Source of the DNA: a virus
Virus record (IMG/VR): IMGVR_UViG_3300050128_000053
Span: 24,866 to 88,865 of that record
Reading direction: 5' to 3' (one strand)
DNA: 64,000 nt
Below are positions 8,685-17,856 of the stretch, piece by piece. Numbering within the stretch: position 1 is the first letter of the stretch; the number at the start of each line of letters is the position of its first letter. The notes under the pieces were generated by a model that saw only the letters and a program-made list of their open reading frames with translations, searched no databases and was not told where the DNA came from. A program made the translations under genes and the position numbers.

Positions 8685-9941
8685 CTAGTTGGTGTTTCCG
8701 ATTACCACGCTCCAATCTGTGATAAGTCCGAGGCCCCATATTGCATACCAGGCCAGAGCGTGCTCACGACCGAAGTCGAGGACCCCGCCGTCGCGCAGTT
8801 CCACCGGCAAGGAGATGGCATGCCCGAAGGCGTTGTCACCCAAGAAGATCGCCTGGTAGACGTTCTGTGGCGTGGCGGCCGAGCTGAGGAACGAGTTGAC
8901 CTGTGTGGTCTCGATGAACACGCAGTCGTACAGCCGGCCGATCTCTCCGAGGGCGAAGTTGCCCGGGGCAGCGTACTTGGTCACTTCGATGAACTCAGGA
9001 GTGTCACGCAAGCGACGGCTCTGAGCCGGGGCCACGAACGAGACATAGGTCTCGCCCAGTCGAGGCACGTTCTTCGACGCCAAGGTCAGAACAGCATCCT
9101 TGACCAGCGGCGGCGTGAAGTAGTACTGACCGCTCAAGCCCGTGGTCGAAGTGCCGACGGTGCCCTGATCATACGGCGAGAGCGTCGTACGCGGTGTGTC
9201 GTTGACCGTGGTGTTGTACCCGAAGATCACCGAACTGGCCAACAACAACGTGTTCCGCGCCGAGTAGTCGAGGTACTGGGCCATGTTGCGGCCGAGCAAC
9301 CGAGACGCCGACGCCATGACATCGTCGAAGGACGCATTCAGCAGCAGCTCGGTCACCGAGACGCCGAAGCCTTGCTCTGCCACCGTGATGGAGAACTGGC
9401 TGGCCGTCAGGGCCACGGTCTGCATGCGGACGCCTTCAACGAGCTGTGAGGCATTCGGCAGGTTGTTGTAGCGCATGAAGTTGATGGTGAGCCCAGGCTG
9501 AACACCTAGTTCCGTCTTCTTCACGGCGAACTGCTCGAAGCGCAGAATCGGCATCGCTTGGAACAAGATCTCTTTGGCAAACTGTTACCACCGTTTCCGG
9601 CGGGGTGATCATTTCTGTCACCCTCTGCAGATTTACCATCCCTGCAGATCGGACTGTATCTTCATCTTCAGCACCAGCACACTTCTCACCTAAGTGCTGA
9701 TCCTCTTGAAGATGTCTCCCGTGCAGTCTCTACGGAGTCCCAGGTGTTGGGTTCCCTCGGTATTCCCCTTTGTTGGCGGGGTTCACCGATACAGGGAGAT
9801 CATGATCTCATCGGTCACCCGATGAGACGGCCCTTATGTCGACCAAATTGTCTGGATTGCTTGTCCAAGCGTGCTATTGGCACCGGAATACCCGGTGGGG
9901 GAAGCGGCCAAATAAGGCGTCCCCGTCACGGCTGAGGGCAT
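8685..9941 (-). CDS. Major capsid protein, N4 gp56 family, split by a group I intron
   Basis: Two exons, 9842-9941 and 8685-9577, join into a 330-residue protein. The ATG at 9941 follows AGGAGGTGATTTGC, the strongest ribosome site in the region. Exon 1 encodes MPSAVTGTPYLAASPTG to QAIQTIW. Joined with exon 2, the junction reads ...TIW-S-KEILFQAMPILRF, which keeps the frame and gives the usual N-terminal arm of this capsid family. Exon 2 includes LVEGVRMQTVAL, then QGFGVSVTELLLN, then ARNTLLLASSV, characteristic of gp56-like shells. Without splicing, exon 1 ends at a TAA two codons into the intron. Scaffold and portal lie upstream, connectors downstream. Confidence 0.88.
9578..9841 (-). mobile_element. 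Group I self-splicing intron (264 nt, no ORF)
   Basis: The minus-strand sequence between the capsid exons carries group I landmarks. P7 strands GACTG (9724-9728) and CAGTC (9652-9656) lie within the R-like GACTGCACGGG and S-like AAGATACAGTCC blocks. A 9-bp hairpin with a GTGA tetraloop lies at 9806-9827. The exon ends in GGT, which pairs with an internal GCC to form P1 with a U-G pair at the 5' splice site. The intron ends in G at 9578, and that join restores the capsid frame. It lacks a homing nuclease gene. Exact splice sites are my inference from pairing and frame. Confidence 0.85.
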
Positions 9942-10599: not shown

Positions 10600-11427
10600 T
10601 CACGGGGCGTAGATCCCCGCTTCCTTGGCTCGGGCGCTTACGGCACCGAGCAACTGGGGACGAAGACGGGAGTACTCCTCAGGCGACATGGCAGCCAGTT
10701 CCTCGTTGCTGAAGGTGACCTGCTGCTGATCGACCAAACCAGCCATATCGTAAGGCGGCATCCCAGACATCGGGAGACCAACCCGAGGCTGTTGCTGCTG
10801 CTGGCCAGTGCCACCGGCAGCAGCTTGAAACCCCTCAACGATCTCAGCCGTCTTCTGCGCCATCAAAGCCAAGGATGCTTCGATCTCCTCAGTGGTGTTG
10901 CCACGAACGAGATCATCGAACTGCGGCGCTATCTCGTCACGCATTTCAGCAATGCGCTGAACTCGGTACTGACCGAGCCGGGCCAACTCCTGCTCCTTTT
11001 GGAAGATGATCTGTTCACGCTTGCGCTCATCCTCGAGCTGAGCGAACCGGTGTTCCCAGGTCTGGTTGGAATCTTGAAGGCGCTGCTCGAGATCAAGATT
11101 CTTTAAGCGCTCGGCCTCAGCCTCGGCCTCAAGGCGCTGCTGCTCTTCTTGTTCGGCAGCAAGCCGAGCCTCACGGTCTTGGGCAAGAGTAGTTACCGTG
11201 CCGCGCAACTGCTCGAGTTCGGGATAGAGCTTGTCCTTCTCCTCGGCCCGAACATGACCCATCATCTCTTCGACCTGGGCTCTCGTAAAAACCTCTTCCT
11301 GCTGTTGCTGACTGCCGTTCGCAGCCGGCGGGACTCCTTGACCTTCGCCCCGCTCACCGACATTGATGGTGATCCCGGCCGGCGCACCGGGGATCCCTGA
11401 GGGGGAACCTTCGCCCGTCATTGACAT
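10600..11427 (-). CDS. Capsid scaffold-like protein
   Basis: A 275-residue protein between portal and capsid, the normal position of the scaffold. The start MSMTGEGSP follows GAAGGAGATGCACAA. An in-frame upstream ATG at 11493 would add 22 residues. A Gly/Pro-rich start is followed by a long charged coiled coil (residues about 50-200, rich in Glu, Gln, Arg) and a C-terminus with EELAAMSPEEYSRLRPQ. Scaffolds direct procapsid assembly around the portal and are then lost. Composition and position both fit. Sequence conservation in this class is low. Confidence 0.8.
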   Translation of the reverse strand: MSMTGEGSPSGIPGAPAGITINVGERGEGQGVPPAANGSQQQQEEVFTRAQVEEMMGHVRAEEKDKLYPELEQLRGTVTTLAQDREARLAAEQEEQQRLEAEAEAERLKNLDLEQRLQDSNQTWEHRFAQLEDERKREQIIFQKEQELARLGQYRVQRIAEMRDEIAPQFDDLVRGNTTEEIEASLALMAQKTAEIVEGFQAAAGGTGQQQQQPRVGLPMSGMPPYDMAGLVDQQQVTFSNEELAAMSPEEYSRLRPQLLGAVSARAKEAGIYAP

Positions 11428-11550: not shown

Positions 11551-14500
11551 TCAATCGTCGTCGCCCGATGAAAGCGGATTACGACGCTGCGGGATCTTGG
11601 TGCCGGCGGCAAGGGTGGTGAGCTGATTCATGATCGACTGGACCTCGGGAGTATCGGCAAACTGGGGCGGTGGCGCTTGTACACCGGCCGCTGTATTCAC
11701 GCCCGGGCCACCAGCCGAAGACACTCCCCCAGCGTCACCTCCAGGGGCAGGACCAGTCGACGATGGCGATGGCGGATCGGCACCATCAGGCGGTACCCCG
11801 GTAAGCATTGAAATGAGCACCCGGATCTGGGCATTCTGCAAATCGAGAGCACCTTGTTCAAGGGCATCTTGATGCAGTTCGTCCATAAGTTCCTGCAGCT
11901 TCTCGGCTGGATATTGCTCGCCCATGAGGCGCAGGGCCCCGGTCTTGGATTCAAGACCCATGCCCATTTTGAGCTGCAACTCATTGAGAAGGACCAGCAT
12001 GTCAAGCGGTAGCGGGGACTGGAACTCAACCGTATTGCGGTAAGTAATAGGGTCATTCGGGTCGAGAACCGTGACCTGACCCTCTTCAAGCGGTGGATCG
12101 CGCAACGGATCGATCTCGAGCATCTGGGGCAAATATGTCGCCGCCGTGAGGATCAACAACTCATTGAGCATGGCCAGGCCCGAAGACATCTGGGTCGTCT
12201 TTTGACGGAACTTTTGCATCAGCGGAAGGTATTGCAAAGAGAGCGCCACGCCCGATGTATTGCTGATCTGCTGTTCTTGGCCGAGCAAAGAAATGGGCAC
12301 ACCGACCAACTCGTGCATCTTCTCTTTGAGCAGTTCTAAAAACTTGATCGCCTCACCCAACTCAGCCCCGAGAGCGAGATTCTCAATCTTGGCCTTCTCA
12401 TTGGGGATGGACCATACCTTCTTGGGTCCCCGCTCGAGGCTGTTGGATTTCGCTCCCATGATGACTGTGGTGGGGGAGTTCCCGGTCCAATAGGTGTTCC
12501 CATTACGGCTCGCCATCCAAATGCTGTTTTTAACAGTTGGGCACCAGACGGTCACATCTTCAACATCGACCGTCTTTGCAGACTTCAATGTCGACTCAAC
12601 CTCAATCGATTGGCGGCTGTACTTGTCAATAAAGTTGCCTCGGGTATTGACCCGATCCCCCAACATCGCATTCAACATGCGATAACCCTCTTTACGAGCA
12701 CCGTCCTCCTGATACCACGAGCTTCGCTTTTCTGTAATCCAGTGGCCATCTGCATCAACAAGAATCTTCTGAAGCATTCGAGCTTGGGTGTACGTCAGCG
12801 AGTAAATAAAGGACGGGGAGAGTACCTTCTTAGGAGCGACCTCCTCCAAAGTCTCTTTCACCCCTTTACCCAGATACCAGTTATAACAGCCGTTATCCAT
12901 CGGCTTTGCCGATTCAGTAAAGGTGCCTCCACTGCGTTGCCAATACCGCATCAAACGTCGAATAGACCGCACATGGTCAGGGTTCTTTGTCCAACTCTGA
13001 CTTATGGTGATGGAGTGCCAATCATTCGGCCCGCTGTAGGCGTCACAACCTTCCGTGATATACCAGCCAACAGTCTCGACCAACTCGTCGTCCCACTTCG
13101 GCTGAGCTGCAAAAGCAAACGATGTCCCACCCCCCACCACCAAACGAGCATGAGACTTGAAATCAGCTAAAGCTGGTTCCTCAGCATCCCCAATCAAAGT
13201 TCGACCAATACGTCGAGCATCAAGTGGGTAGATCTGCTTTCTCGTCTTACGTTGCTCTACCAACCAGCGATGATTAGGGGTTACGAGGGCGTCAATGTGG
13301 TTAGACAGGTGAACGAGAGATCCCGTGTACGACTTGGAGAAAAGAGACTCGACCGGCTGCCATTCAATCTCATCAGTAGACGAGTTAAGAGTGAGGATCT
13401 CATCTCCAACAGTCAACTCGTCATGCTTCTTCCAACCCTCCGGAGTCAGAGCCAGGGTGGTCTCATCGACACAGGCGTAGTAATTAGTAATGTCCATCAG
13501 CAGGGTGGCCGTCTCGTTGTACGCCCGATTCAAGTCTGTGATGTCTTGGATGTCTGAAAGACCCCAAGGCGATGACGGCACCTTCTTGTTCGCTATGTGG
13601 ACGAAAGGAATGCGCCCCAAGGGGTTCTCTTGATCCTCCACCAACTCGTCATTGATAAAACTCTGCATCGAACTTTCAGTCCACAACTCGGTAAACGAGT
13701 TCCCTGTCCAATACGTACAGCCATTACGACGCGCAAACCAAGTACCAGACGGGGTCGTAGGACACCAAACTTTTCCTTGATAACCCTCCTCAGAAACATG
13801 AAGTCGCCTTGCCGTAATGTAAGGAGAATGGTAGACCGTTACGTTTGCGCAGTTATTCAAATCTCCACGCTTTTCTTTATGCTGCCTCCACCACTCTGAT
13901 GCATCACTCTTCCACCAATGGGTAAAGCTCCTCCTTCCGAGCATGGCAGTGAGCATTTGGAATCCGTCAATGAGGCCTTGATCTTGATTTATGAAGTTCT
14001 CCGTCTCAACAGTCCGCGTAAACCCATCGTGATTCCGAAGAACAGCGTAATGCCCATCCCCCTCAAGAAGGGTGTGGTAGAGAAGCTCTGCTTGATCCAT
14101 TGTAAGAGCACCAAGAAACTCTGGAGTCAGTGTCTTGTTCGGAGCAACTTGGCGAATAAGGTTGCCAATCCCGCTACCAAAATAGAACTGCCGACACCCT
14201 TCATACTTGGTTCCGTCATTGTAATCAGTATTGAGTTCTGTTGCAGTTGCCCCTTGCGCAGAAAATGCCTTCTGAAGATATCTGATGCGAGCGACCAAGT
14301 TGGGATTACTAGCCTCAGACTGACCAATCGTCACAGCAGTCTTTGCCGGAAACTTCGGGTAATGCCCTTCAGTAACAGCCCAACCAATAAGTTCAACAAA
14401 GTCGTCTGAAAAAGTTGGCCATTCTGCAAAGGAGGACAAATGCCCTCCAGCCGCAGCCCCAATAATCTGCTTGTTTGAGTGACCGGTGCTTAACTCTTCC

Positions 14501-14877
14501 GTTGTCATGAACCGAATGGGCCGATTTAAGTTCGGATAGGAATAACCATCCCGATCTCGGTATTCTACGAGCCACCGGTGATTTGGAGTCGAGAGGGCGT
14601 CCATTCGATCGGTCTGCCATCTGGTAAGTGAACCGTCCCAATCGAACACATTGACGGCTGTGTGCTCTTCCCAACGAACCTCGCGCGTCACAGGATCCAT
14701 CACAAGGAACTTGTCGTCGTCCTCGATGTTGTCCCAACGCTTCCAACCAGAAGACGTCAAAGCTTCAGTAGTTTCGTCCTGGCAAAATACTTGGCGGGTT
14801 CCCTCTAATGCCGTCCCCCAAAATCTGTACTTCATCTTGAACCGGATCACCCGAGTCATGTCGTGCGGGTGGTACAT
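11551..14877 (-). CDS. Portal protein, C-terminal part, containing two inteins
   Basis: An 1108-codon frame. Extein pieces are residues 1-31 (MYHPHDMTRVIRF to GTRQVF), 394-468 (SFTELWTESS to ITNYYA) and 801-1108. The last contains the portal clip/wing region with LLKEKMHELVGVPISLLGQ and NELQLKMGMGLESKTGALRL in segments typical of SPP1-like portals. After splicing, these would continue the N-terminal portal segment encoded just upstream in another frame. The ATG at 14877 lies inside the end of the upstream frame, so it may be a true restart or merely the second half of one frameshifted gene. The C-terminal 60 residues are Pro/Gly-rich and disordered. Confidence 0.85.
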   Translation of the reverse strand: MYHPHDMTRVIRFKMKYRFWGTALEGTRQVFCQDETTEALTSSGWKRWDNIEDDDKFLVMDPVTREVRWEEHTAVNVFDWDGSLTRWQTDRMDALSTPNHRWLVEYRDRDGYSYPNLNRPIRFMTTEELSTGHSNKQIIGAAAGGHLSSFAEWPTFSDDFVELIGWAVTEGHYPKFPAKTAVTIGQSEASNPNLVARIRYLQKAFSAQGATATELNTDYNDGTKYEGCRQFYFGSGIGNLIRQVAPNKTLTPEFLGALTMDQAELLYHTLLEGDGHYAVLRNHDGFTRTVETENFINQDQGLIDGFQMLTAMLGRRSFTHWWKSDASEWWRQHKEKRGDLNNCANVTVYHSPYITARRLHVSEEGYQGKVWCPTTPSGTWFARRNGCTYWTGNSFTELWTESSMQSFINDELVEDQENPLGRIPFVHIANKKVPSSPWGLSDIQDITDLNRAYNETATLLMDITNYYACVDETTLALTPEGWKKHDELTVGDEILTLNSSTDEIEWQPVESLFSKSYTGSLVHLSNHIDALVTPNHRWLVEQRKTRKQIYPLDARRIGRTLIGDAEEPALADFKSHARLVVGGGTSFAFAAQPKWDDELVETVGWYITEGCDAYSGPNDWHSITISQSWTKNPDHVRSIRRLMRYWQRSGGTFTESAKPMDNGCYNWYLGKGVKETLEEVAPKKVLSPSFIYSLTYTQARMLQKILVDADGHWITEKRSSWYQEDGARKEGYRMLNAMLGDRVNTRGNFIDKYSRQSIEVESTLKSAKTVDVEDVTVWCPTVKNSIWMASRNGNTYWTGNSPTTVIMGAKSNSLERGPKKVWSIPNEKAKIENLALGAELGEAIKFLELLKEKMHELVGVPISLLGQEQQISNTSGVALSLQYLPLMQKFRQKTTQMSSGLAMLNELLILTAATYLPQMLEIDPLRDPPLEEGQVTVLDPNDPITYRNTVEFQSPLPLDMLVLLNELQLKMGMGLESKTGALRLMGEQYPAEKLQELMDELHQDALEQGALDLQNAQIRVLISMLTGVPPDGADPPSPSSTGPAPGGDAGGVSSAGGPGVNTAAGVQAPPPQFADTPEVQSIMNQLTTLAAGTKIPQRRNPLSSGDDD
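12478..13473 (-). mobile_element. Intein 3 of the portal (332 aa)
   Basis: Residues 469-800 of the portal frame. It starts CVDETTLALTPEGWKK (block A), has a TPNHRW block B, LAGLIDADG-type dodecapeptides (ELVETVGWYITEG and MLQKILVDADG), and ends NTYWTGN before Ser+1. It is clearly related to the other two portal inteins through TPNHRW, VWCPT and YWTGN. The penultimate residue is Gly rather than the usual His. Splicing joins NYYA to SPTTVIMG in the portal. Confidence 0.88.
13699..14784 (-). mobile_element. Intein 2 of the portal (362 aa)
   Basis: Residues 32-393 of the portal frame. It starts CQDETTEALTSSGWKRW, carries VFDWDG, a TPNHRW block B, two LAGLIDADG-type motifs (ELIGWAVTEG and LLYHTLLEGDG), and ends CTYWTGN before Ser+1. 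The shared VFDWDG and WCPTT segments show that it and portal intein 1 are close relatives. As in its relatives, Gly replaces the penultimate His. Splicing joins GTRQVF to SFTELW. Confidence 0.9.
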
Positions 14878-16268
14878 AACTCGGGGAAACAGTTCCCCGT
14901 AATGTAAACCGTATTACGGAAAATATTTCCCCTATCTGCACCAGCACCGCTTGCAGGAGTCACCTCCTTCCTGCGTGTGACCCATGTTCCTACAGAGGTG
15001 GTTGGGCACCATACTCGCCCTCTGTAGTGACGAACCGAACGATTCATCCATTTCATGTTCGCTGTCCGACTGTGATGCACCCCAACGGTGCCGTCTCGAC
15101 CTCCAAACTTTCCTCTAGGCGTATCAGAGACCTTTGAAATGCTTCGCTTGCCGAGCATCATGGCAAGCATTTGAAAAGAATCAATCAACCCGAGGTTGTT
15201 CTGGTAAAGACGCTCTCGACCGCCAATGCGTGCTGTCTCCCCATCCCCGTCGAGAAGTGTATTGAAAAGCAGTTCCGCTTGTGGGCGGGTGAGGTTTGTG
15301 AGGAAGCCTGAATCGATTTCCTTTTCCTCATGCAAAACGGCTTGGACCTGACGACCGATTGTTACCGGAAAATACCACTGAAGGAATCCGTCTGACCGCT
15401 CGTAAACAGACCCCTGAAAGTGGTGACAGAGCTTGTCAATACGTTCACAAAAGTCGGGATGAACACGAGGACTTTGCCCAACACAAACAGCCGAAGAATC
15501 AAACCAGCCTTCCGCAGCCACCCAACCCACCAGTTCTACAAACTCATCAGAGTGCTCTGGCATAGTCGGGAAATGCTTTAGTTCGCCGCCCGCCAAGACC
15601 AGAGACCCACCAGTCACCTCATGCAGCTCTGCTGTGGATCGCATCCCCCGGGTTCCACGCTCACCTGAGGTGTCATAGATCCATCGGTGGTCGGCCGTCG
15701 TGGCAGCACTGAAGTTCTTGCTACGCCATTCGTATAGGGGGCCGTCCCAGTCAAAAACGTTGATCCGCCCCACCCGAGACCAAACCAGCTCGTCGGTCTC
15801 GTAGTCAAGCACCAGAGCTTCGTCCCCAACTCTTACCTGATCAGCATTGAGCCAACCACGCTTAGTCAGGATTTCGTTCTCGTCGGCCGGCATGCAGAAA
15901 GCGCTGTTGAGCGGCAGGATGCGGATACGCGCCGGATGCTCATAACCCGCCGGATCGACAAATGATTCTTCGAAAGCCACCTTTACGAACGAGTCGCCTG
16001 ATACAGAAGATTGCTGCATAATTTCCCACATGACAGCGTCTTTGCCTTGGGGCTGATGCTCTTCCCAGATGGTACGCAGAAGCTCGGGGACAATGGCCTC
16101 AGTTGCTTTGGGCGATTTGAAGTAAGTGCCGTTGGTGAGGCAGAAGTTGGTCAAGAAGTCGCTAAAGGCAGCCGACCAGTTGAACGTGAGCTGAGGCTCA
16201 CCGATTTCGCGACGGTAGCTCCAATGATGGCCTAAGTAAAAAGCCCAGTTGCTGGCGTAGCGATTCAA
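14856..16268 (-). CDS. Portal protein, N-terminal part, containing one intein
   Basis: A 470-codon frame beginning at TTG 16268, which overlaps the TGA of a 42-residue frame upstream. Residues 1-124 are portal sequence (NRYASNWAFYLGHHW, GEPQLTFNW, RIRILPLNSAF). Residues 125-459 are an intein. After the splice junction only CFPEL and six more residues precede a stop, whereas the shifted frame reads FPRVMYHPHDM straight into the next portal frame. A heptamer TTTCCCC lies exactly at the shift and could serve as a -1 slippery site. One missing C in the run would also explain it. Confidence 0.82.
   Translation of the reverse strand: MNRYASNWAFYLGHHWSYRREIGEPQLTFNWSAAFSDFLTNFCLTNGTYFKSPKATEAIVPELLRTIWEEHQPQGKDAVMWEIMQQSSVSGDSFVKVAFEESFVDPAGYEHPARIRILPLNSAFCMPADENEILTKRGWLNADQVRVGDEALVLDYETDELVWSRVGRINVFDWDGPLYEWRSKNFSAATTADHRWIYDTSGERGTRGMRSTAELHEVTGGSLVLAGGELKHFPTMPEHSDEFVELVGWVAAEGWFDSSAVCVGQSPRVHPDFCERIDKLCHHFQGSVYERSDGFLQWYFPVTIGRQVQAVLHEEKEIDSGFLTNLTRPQAELLFNTLLDGDGETARIGGRERLYQNNLGLIDSFQMLAMMLGKRSISKVSDTPRGKFGGRDGTVGVHHSRTANMKWMNRSVRHYRGRVWCPTTSVGTWVTRRKEVTPASGAGADRGNIFRNTVYITGNCFPELCTTRTT
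14892..15896 (-). mobile_element. Intein 1 of the portal (335 aa)
   Basis: Residues 125-459 of the N-terminal portal frame. It starts CMPADENEILTKRGW, carries VFDWDG, a TTADHRW block B, the dodecapeptide-like ELVGWVAAEG and LLFNTLLDGDG, and ends VYITGN before Cys+1. Compared with its relatives it has an extra stretch of roughly 20 residues before the terminal strand. The penultimate residue is Gly. Splicing joins NSAF to CFP. Confidence 0.88.
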
Positions 16269-16393
16269 GCGAGGTCCATGAACCTCGATCTAAACTCCTC
16301 ATCCGCTAACTCAACCAGGCCCAAGGGGCTGATGGCAATCGTTAGGTCTGAGGAGGCTGCACGGTAACTGGGTGTCACAAAACTAATGGCCAT
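16265..16393 (-). CDS. Probable extreme N-terminus of the portal (42 aa, frame-separated)
   Basis: The ATG at 16393 follows AAGGGGGTGAAAGCACA, a good ribosome site. The frame reads MAISFVTPSYRAA to FRSRFMDLA and stops at TGA overlapping the TTG of the next frame. A portal normally starts with such a segment, and DLA-LNRYASNWAFYL reads smoothly across a -1 shift. Either this is the true portal start separated by one missing base, or a small coupled upstream gene. Confidence 0.55.
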   Translation of the reverse strand: MAISFVTPSYRAASSDLTIAISPLGLVELADEEFRSRFMDLA

Positions 16394-16400
16394 TGTGCTT

Positions 16401-17075
16401 TCACCCCCTTCCCGGCTGAGACACGCTTTGCTTCCTAAGCTCACGCACTTTGTTGGCTATTTCCTTGCGCCGTTCCTCCGTGAACGGCCAACAGTTGCTC
16501 TTTCGGATATTGCACAGATCACACGAAGGCATAAGGTTATCAATCGTATGAGTTCCACCTGCTGTCAAGGGCTGATAGTGGTCCCAGTGGAGGTTGTTCG
16601 TCAGGAGCATCTCACAGATGTGACACCGCCCTCCAAACTCTGCAAGACGAAGGTCGAACTGTTCCGCTGAAATGACCTCAACCAAAGTGCCAGCCTTTAT
16701 GGCACGCCGTCTGCTCTCACATCGCTGCGTTGCCTTTCGGCGCTTCTCAGCGATCTCGGGTATTTTGCCTCGCTCAACATGGCGCTTGTAACGCTCTTCT
16801 CGATTGGCCACATGATGGACTCGAAGCCGCTCTTTCGACCACTCAGGGTGATCAATGTGGTATTGGCGTGCCTTAGTGATTTTGGTCGCCGGATCAGCAG
16901 CATAAATCTCTCGTGCTCGCTGATTACGCTTCTCTCGGCGGTTATCGTCAGTAACCTTCACACACAACTTACAACGGGGACGTCGTCCGTCTCTCGATGC
17001 AGAATCCTTGTGGAAATCAGTGAGTGGCTTGGAGATTCCGCACCCCTTGCAAACTTTCACATCAACTGCTGTCAT
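16401..17075 (-). CDS. Freestanding HNH endonuclease
   Basis: A 224-residue protein starting MTAVDVKVCKGCG. An N-terminal zinc knuckle (CKGCG...CKLC) is followed by a very basic helical region and a C-terminal HNH domain: CHICEMLLTNNLHWDHY, then GGTHTIDNLMPSCDLCN. The Cys pairs and the DH...N...H-like spacing are complete. Such genes are homing nucleases that spread themselves or a nearby intron or intein. It lies immediately upstream of the three-intein portal and downstream of the endolysin. An upstream in-frame start would overlap the endolysin. Confidence 0.88.
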   Translation of the reverse strand: MTAVDVKVCKGCGISKPLTDFHKDSASRDGRRPRCKLCVKVTDDNRREKRNQRAREIYAADPATKITKARQYHIDHPEWSKERLRVHHVANREERYKRHVERGKIPEIAEKRRKATQRCESRRRAIKAGTLVEVISAEQFDLRLAEFGGRCHICEMLLTNNLHWDHYQPLTAGGTHTIDNLMPSCDLCNIRKSNCWPFTEERRKEIANKVRELRKQSVSQPGRG

Positions 17076-17094
17076 GGCGGCGGTCGTCCGCTTT

Positions 17095-17856
17095 TTACGG
17101 CGTGTCCACTCCGACCTTGGTGAATAGGGCGAACTGAGCAGCACTGATCGCTATGTCTGGGATGCCAGCCGAGGCAAACGCCGATAGATCGGCCGGGTCG
17201 GTGACGTGGGTGGCCACACCGCCCGAGACGAGGAACACCTCGTTGCCCTGCGTGGTGAGGAACATGGTCGGAACCTTTCTGTTTGGGACATGGGTGGGCG
17301 GTGGTGTCGGTGAAGTGAGCCCGAAGAGGGCATCGAAATCGGCCTGAGACCCCACCCAGTGCGAGGCGTCGACCTCCACTGGGATCCCCGGCACACTGAG
17401 TGAATCGGTGTACTGCCAGCAGTCCCCGAAGCCGTAGTCCTTGCCGTAGCTCGCCGGCCAGAGCATGGCCCTGATCCCTGACCGAGGCAGTGTCGAGGCG
17501 CTGCCGTAATCCATCTCTTCATCGGCGCTCAAGTTGAGAGCGACAAGGAAGGCGTTCTGCCACCCACTGTTGGTGCTGGTCTCCGAGTCAAGGATGCGAG
17601 CTTTCGATCCGGCGACTGATTTGAAGTAGGCCGCTTCATCTGAAGCACTGGTGAAATCGGCGAAGTGATAGGCCACGTGGGCGATGTTGTGCGATTCAGC
17701 AAGGGCGGCGGAATCGGAGTAATACGGGTTGGTGTAACCCGTCCCCTGTGTGGCCTTGATGATGAGAGCAAGGACGTTCTCAGAGATCAGAACCCAGTCC
17801 CAATCAGCAGGGTCGCCATTGTCAGAACTGATGTCGATGATGTTTGTTGCCGTCAC
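17095..17856 (-). CDS. Endolysin, glycoside hydrolase family 25 muramidase
   Basis: A 253-residue lysozyme that cuts the glycan chain of peptidoglycan at the end of infection. The N-terminal 190 residues form a GH25 barrel: IIDISSDNG at strand 1, LALIIKATQGTGYTN, HVAYHFADF and RILDSETS carrying the acidic catalytic pair region, then AMLWPASYG. A Pro/Thr linker (TSPTPPPTHVP) leads to a small C-terminal module with FLTTQGNEVFLVSGG that may bind wall. It has no signal peptide, so a holin should release it. It is embedded among structural genes. Confidence 0.9.
   Translation of the reverse strand: MTATNIIDISSDNGDPADWDWVLISENVLALIIKATQGTGYTNPYYSDSAALAESHNIAHVAYHFADFTSASDEAAYFKSVAGSKARILDSETSTNSGWQNAFLVALNLSADEEMDYGSASTLPRSGIRAMLWPASYGKDYGFGDCWQYTDSLSVPGIPVEVDASHWVGSQADFDALFGLTSPTPPPTHVPNRKVPTMFLTTQGNEVFLVSGGVATHVTDPADLSAFASAGIPDIAISAAQFALFTKVGVDTP

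Follow-up and report, generated by a model that had tools for sequence, protein, structure and literature searches.

Short frame-breaking inserts beside HNH endonuclease genes in phage portal genes: a candidate homing-linked form of translational bypass in a gene with three inteins

Introduction

Programmed bypassing in phages so far rests essentially on gene 60 of T4: in the gene 60/mobA system a non-coding insert is linked to an HNH-type homing endonuclease, a UAG directly follows the take-off codon, and the insert may have shielded the gene from the nuclease (PMC5009743). This single hop spans 50 nt and requires a perfect GGA/GGA codon pair, the nascent peptide and stem-loops. In the mitochondria of Magnusiomyces capitatus, many short inserts (81 in 12 genes) are combined with an unused A-site codon and an imperfect match of take-off and landing codons (PMC5009743), and in synthetic E. 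coli "stop-hops" matched codons flank a stop within a few nucleotides. According to a review of 2016, no natural in-frame stop-hop was known and shorter natural counterparts were to be expected (PMC5009743). As regards inteins, a W-C-T triplet defines class 3, whose members are devoid of a position-1 nucleophile (PMC5050341, PMC3196547), and G-N ends are already known among mycobacteriophage inteins (PMC5050341).

The DNA analyzed here, termed the window, comprises 64,000 nt of an 88.9-kb linear virus record; the virus infects soil bacteria, and genes for tail sheath, capsid and endolysin are located near its portal gene. The portal genes of this virus and of its relatives contain non-coding inserts that resemble the T4 insert in their position beside HNH-type genes and, in most cases though not in the window, in a stop straight after the take-off codon; in contrast to the latter, they are only 4–10 nt long, numerous, found at several positions and with several endonuclease types, and often only near-cognate in their codon match. 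With the Magnusiomyces inserts they share the shortness, the number and the imperfect match, but they reside in one phage gene beside an endonuclease and have a stop, UUA or AGA as the A-site codon. The arrangement of matched codons around a nearby stop corresponds to that of the stop-hops, which are, however, engineered constructs.

Results

Portal gene and inteins of the window

The host protein of the inteins is a portal, as identified by PHROG and Pfam matches (Table 1). Translation bore out the initial annotation in that inteins of 335, 362 and 332 aa are present at three sites with the junctions as claimed, account for more than half of the product (1029 of 1610 aa, 64%) and all terminate in G-N, more exactly T-G-N. 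Its description of one portal gene was correct in so far as the three inteins belong to one portal, but the reading frame is not continuous: two 5-nt inserts divide it into three segments (16393-16292, 16286-14880 and 14874-11551, minus strand). It is the first of these breaks that creates the semblance of a TTG start at 16268; counted from the ATG at 16393, the exteins total 581 aa versus approximately 585 aa in the intact portal L007. Neither the frame breaks nor the adjoining HNH gene had been noticed in the initial annotation.

Table 1. Features of the portal locus, listed in the direction of transcription.
Feature	Position	Strand	Remarks
HNH endonuclease gene, directly upstream of portal start	16401..17144	-	Pfam HNH 7e-6; PHROG endonuclease VII 3e-28
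Portal extein a, MAISF..ELADEEF	16292..16393	-	True start ATG 16393; collinear with intact portals L007, L011, L012
Insert 1, AGATC (take-off UUU, next codon AGA, landing AUC)	16287..16291	-	Missing from intact relatives
Portal extein b, EVHGP..NSAF	15897..16286	-	82% identity to L007
Intein 1, 335 aa, extended C-terminal region	14892..15896	-	Cys1 and W-C-T; junction NSAF/C..N/CFP
AAGGAGGTGA, Shine-Dalgarno-like decamer within intein 1	14960..14969	-	
Portal extein CFPE	14880..14891	-	Kept in relatives
Insert 2, TTATG (take-off GAG, next codon UUA, landing AUG; weak match)	14875..14879	-	
Portal extein c, YHPHD..TRQVF	14785..14874	-	
Intein 2, 362 aa	13699..14784	-	Junction TRQVF/C..N/SFTE; AlphaFold and PDB fold matches
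Portal extein d, SFTEL..NYYA	13474..13698	-	
Intein 3, 332 aa	12478..13473	-	Junction NYYA/C..N/SPTT; same-site allele in L035
Portal extein e, through stop	11551..12477	-	phrog_64 portal 3e-14 (PHROG); SPP1_portal 5e-7 (Pfam)

Judged from their block residues (C1, a TADH/TPNH block B, a C-terminal N and C, S and S, respectively, at +1), all three are Hint plus LAGLIDADG inteins. In the suggested check by Hint HMMs, the sole Pfam match on the window inteins was a sub-threshold Hint_2, whereas the fold modeled for intein 2 by AlphaFold (pLDDT 87, pTM 0.88) was matched by Foldseek to intein structures (TliVMA, E 4e-13; PI-SceI inteins) and to I-DmoI. Intein-free homologues exist: none of the three sites is occupied in L005, L007, L012, L013 and further relatives. 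In other portals an intein occupies one of sites 1 to 3 or a fourth one, KYRFWG. The presence of three inteins in one portal is an unusual combination of parts that are themselves known.

A tree of 68 rows separated one clade of 16 inteins, of which 15 are from portals, from 52 others (support 98/100). Within this clade the grouping followed the insertion site (site 1, 100/99; site 3, 100/96; KYRFWG, 98/91), the site-2 clade consisting of window intein 2, L045 and L044. The window inteins share 53-60% identity with same-site alleles elsewhere (intein 3 versus L035: 52-53%) and 32-39%, far above chance, with each other. Because each of them is nearest to the same-site intein of other phages, the tree supports an old spread across the portal sites. 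The previous interpretation as paralogues that spread within one gene therefore stands for an old spread among portal sites and falls for a recent one inside the window gene; recent triplication of one intein within this portal is ruled out by the site-wise tree. The shared W, WC and T-G-N motifs, formerly taken as signs of paralogy, are the W-C-T positions of class 3 and common to many phage inteins.

Indeed, Trp B:12, Cys F:4 and Thr G:5 occur together with Cys1 in all three window inteins. Among 24 aligned inteins, T66, H69, W71, C341 and T360 are invariant and Cys1 is universal, the Trp at B:12 being enriched by design since relatives were searched with an HRW pattern. The triplet is shared with class 3, and the nearest PDB sequence, AceL NrdHF-1-1, bears class 3 in its title; an assignment to this class was not adopted, as Cys1 is present in all three window inteins and class 3 inteins have no position-1 nucleophile. 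The inteins of mycobacteriophages and Gordonia phages (in portal, TerL and methylase) are homologous, several are located in portals and some have T-G-N ends (PMC5050341), but identity to them is only 24-31%, and none of those compared has three inteins in one portal. The window inteins offer a test case for Cys1 alongside the class-3 triplet.

The decamer AAGGAGGTGA lies in the C-terminal coding part of the extended site-1 inteins, approximately 50-80 nt ahead of the insert; its sequence is the same in four extended inteins at site 1, which share 48-60% aa identity, and is missing from four plain ones. Translation initiation at this decamer was rejected, there being no conserved start codon at a suitable distance.

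Frame-breaking inserts of the window

At the place of insert 1, relatives read ELADEEFEVHGPRLNRY, the window carries AGATC between TTT and GAG, and L118 has an insert of its own, TTC[TGAATC]GAG. Insert 2 interrupts the context CFPE-TTATG-YHPHD; the motif CFPE[YWF]HPHD is uninterrupted in every empty-site relative with DNA read there. Three other extended site-1 inteins (L049/L110, L052/L117 and L020) are followed by inserts at this place, namely [TAGCCCGTA], [TAGCTG] and [TTACCT], and neither empty sites nor plain inteins have one. The neighbor of insert 2 is an intein and not an HNH gene. Take-off and landing codons agree at two of three positions for insert 1 and at one of three for insert 2. 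The inserts of the window itself are weaker examples than those of its relatives, with AGA and UUA instead of stops, and its case for hopping consequently rests on the relatives. Alternatively, insert 2 could be explained by slippage of -1 at CCCC or be erroneous; a direct search found no near-identical strain across insert 2, so that the exact bases of the window at this point have no confirmation from a second contig.

Inserts in related portals

Portals interrupted in a like manner were found in L005, L045, L110, L114, L117 and L118. A pattern scan that barred the intact spacing yielded 25 contigs; three were unrelated, one was an ordinary in-frame indel, one was L005 again, and the remaining ones were further interrupted portals. 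With break positions set by split alignment to intact relatives, 29 inserts were verified in their sequence context, of which 25 differ from one another and span 3 nt or more (range 4-10 nt), in addition to one single T, TTT[T]GAA. Examples are TAT[TAGGTAC]CTA, TAT[TGAATAC]CTA, GCT[TGAATAAGCT]TTC, GAA[TAGCCCGAA]GTT, TTC[TGACGATTT]GAA, CTT[TGACTC]GCA and TCT[TAGCGTCC]GAC. In every case of an insert at the MY/LGHHW position a stop is present, which is UAG, UAA or UGA depending on the phage.

Two features characterize the 25 inserts. Firstly, the last native codon is followed by a stop in 19 cases, by UUA in four and by AGA in two; shuffling of the insert letters gave 1.8 expected stops in 24 compared with 18 observed, with a maximum of 9 in 100,000 simulations. 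In the codon usage of the window phage, UUA is the rarest sense codon (2.7 per thousand) and AGA the fourth rarest (4.4 per thousand). Secondly, the codon that ends the insert resembles the last native codon: in a wobble-aware comparison, eight inserts showed a full match, 15 a match at two of three positions, with the mismatch confined to one codon position, and two (window insert 2 and L005) mismatches at two positions, a similarity reached in none of 200,000 permutations (p<5e-6). Examples of the cognate pairs are UAU[UAG G UAC], UAU[UGA A UAC], GCU[UGA AUAA GCU], GAA[UAG CCC GAA], UUC[UGA CGA UUU] and UCU[UAG CG UCC]. A short tandem duplication could produce part of this similarity of take-off and landing codons. 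Past the insert, the native frame resumes.

All interrupted portals originate from metagenome assemblies and none from a cultured phage; for BRock and GiJojo, two cultured Streptomyces phages, the annotation shows one undivided portal gene and no endonuclease upstream of it. In GTDB genomes, a search for prophage relatives and the pattern scan returned chance matches only.

Association with HNH endonuclease genes

An HNH-type gene is located 0-62 nt upstream of 22 of the 26 interrupted portals and of none of the 94 intact ones (Fisher p 2e-20), counts that do not represent population frequencies, since the intact controls were mostly top tblastn matches and the interrupted genes partly pattern-found. 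After near-copies had been collapsed by hand, the association held in 11 of 14 interrupted portals (p 1e-12); the four interrupted portals devoid of an upstream HNH gene are three independent cases (L045, L117 and L201/L221). In the sequences, the endonuclease type also corresponds to the position of the insert: RPDGR-type HNH genes accompany inserts at MY/LGHHW (9 of 9), window-type HNH genes inserts at EEF/EVHG (3 of 3), endonuclease-VII type genes inserts from NR/YA to WA/FY (four, one exception), and another HNH type inserts in the GHH region (2 of 2). The HNH gene of the window, the sole one in the 88.9-kb record, is of the same type as those of L118 and L219, and the inserts of the latter two are at the same place as insert 1. 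The upstream HNH proteins are presumably homing endonucleases. A parallel case of differing arrangement, the Corndog-type tape-measure gene with an HNH gene inserted at its start codon, was set aside.

Discussion

We consider it likely, with good confidence, that the upstream genes and the inserts constitute HNH homing cassettes whose inserts protect from cleavage and are bypassed by ribosome hopping. The portal gene would thus be the target of two kinds of homing elements, LAGLIDADG inteins and HNH cassettes. The three inteins would leave the portal protein through splicing, whereas a cassette would consist of the upstream HNH gene and a short insert placed where the encoded enzyme presumably cuts the portal gene; this insert would render the portal uncuttable and be co-converted during homing. 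During translation, the ribosome would stall once the stop or one of the rare codons UUA and AGA occupies its A site; the tRNA in the P site would then release the last native codon and re-pair with the cognate or near-cognate codon that ends the insert, and translation would continue in the native frame to give an unaltered portal protein. Hopping is preferred because this single rule fits nearly all inserts, the landing-codon match included. Only slightly less firmly, we regard the inserts as very short natural hops (up to 10 nt) that recur in an essential gene of phages; they may have arisen as the resistance half of homing cassettes and been gained many times independently.

A portal built as two or more polypeptides, with termination at the break, internal restart and assembly of the pieces, would do without any hop, and in the window an ATG at 14877 indeed overlaps insert 2 and a TTG is found 7 codons past insert 1. 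In the relatives, however, stretches of conserved residues precede the first ATG, GTG or TTG (69 aa in L118, 52 in L217, 35 in L005, 33 in L201 and 29 in L199), and re-initiation predicts no match between landing and take-off codons, which makes this explanation improbable.

The inserts are located where an endonuclease might plausibly cut and some have the appearance of small duplications, as would be expected of end-joining scars in pseudogenes of dead or minority phage genomes. In contrast, the dN/dS ratio beyond the break is 0.03-0.08 (divergent pairs, up to 526 codons) with synonymous sites near saturation, so that, by the measure of codon substitution, purifying selection acts downstream of the break. 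Moreover, one insert recurs in several contigs (L198, L207, L214 and L220), the identity of the stop changes while a stop as such is kept, and the remainder of the gene is without decay; gene death is accordingly a very unlikely cause.

To the same low degree we credit a combination of stop read-through and -1/+1 frameshifting with a device differing from gene to gene, or excision of the insert at the mRNA level. In L110, L117, L118 and L219 the insert is a multiple of three with an in-frame stop, TTT[T]GAA looks like a typical site of +1 frameshifting, and CCCC in the window could slip by -1; but the insert lengths cover all three phases, and the one rule that embraces all of them and the landing match is hopping. 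No tRNA gene, and hence no suppressor tRNA, was found in the window or in the six loci scanned, and on the contigs of L110 and L117 further genes are terminated by UAG. Reassignment of UAG was ruled out by this termination and by the interchange of UAG, UAA and UGA.

Assembly or sequencing errors, to which the purely metagenomic origin of the interrupted cases might point, are the least probable cause, given that breaks of this kind are almost confined to the portal (scan of 249 gene families in approximately 130 loci), recur in independent contigs, have a non-random codon phase and are associated with endonuclease genes.

Endonuclease-linked hops in portal genes were not encountered in the literature, of which most subscription papers were out of reach. 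The insert family is a larger finding than the inteins and may represent a new form of homing-endonuclease-linked translational bypass. As gene callers truncate interrupted portals, more of them may lie hidden in viral databases. With 25 distinct candidates and matched intact controls, the rules for the A-site codon, the size of the gap and the match of the codons become readable from evolution, and the tie between the proposed hopping and homing endonucleases is now statistical and no longer a single anecdote. If the proposed reading is true, hopping would be a common way of evading invasion by endonucleases and not a curiosity of T4.

Intervening sequences in the capsid and portal genes

The major capsid gene, which is continuous in relatives, is split in the window by approximately 258 nt that fit a candidate group I intron: the model RF00028 was matched over its full length with 40 bits (E 1e-7), a score below the Rfam gathering score of 50. 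In the related locus L010, the capsid gene undergoes a frame change near position 11254, close to the position of the window's intron site, and lacks 11 residues that are present in that of L009, perhaps as the result of a deletion.

Coordinates of the features
Feature	Locus	Position	Strand	Remarks
Capsid interruption	window	9582-9839	-
RF00028 match	window	9625-9848	-
AAGGAGGTGA	window	14960-14969	-	C-terminal coding part of site-1 intein; same in L049, L052, L020
Intein	L044	1684-2610		host junction SWDVQY/THFTQS

In the portal gene, all four extended site-1 inteins (those with a longer C-terminal region) carry the identical decamer, followed by an insert after CFP(E). The portal of L035 has two inteins, one at KYRFWG, a fourth intein site, and one at site 3; that of L049 likewise has two, at KYRFWG and at site 1. 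Two homologous inteins or intein fragments also occur on the phage contigs L104, L067 and L017. The L044 intein is nested within the portal site-2 clade and may have jumped from one gene to another.
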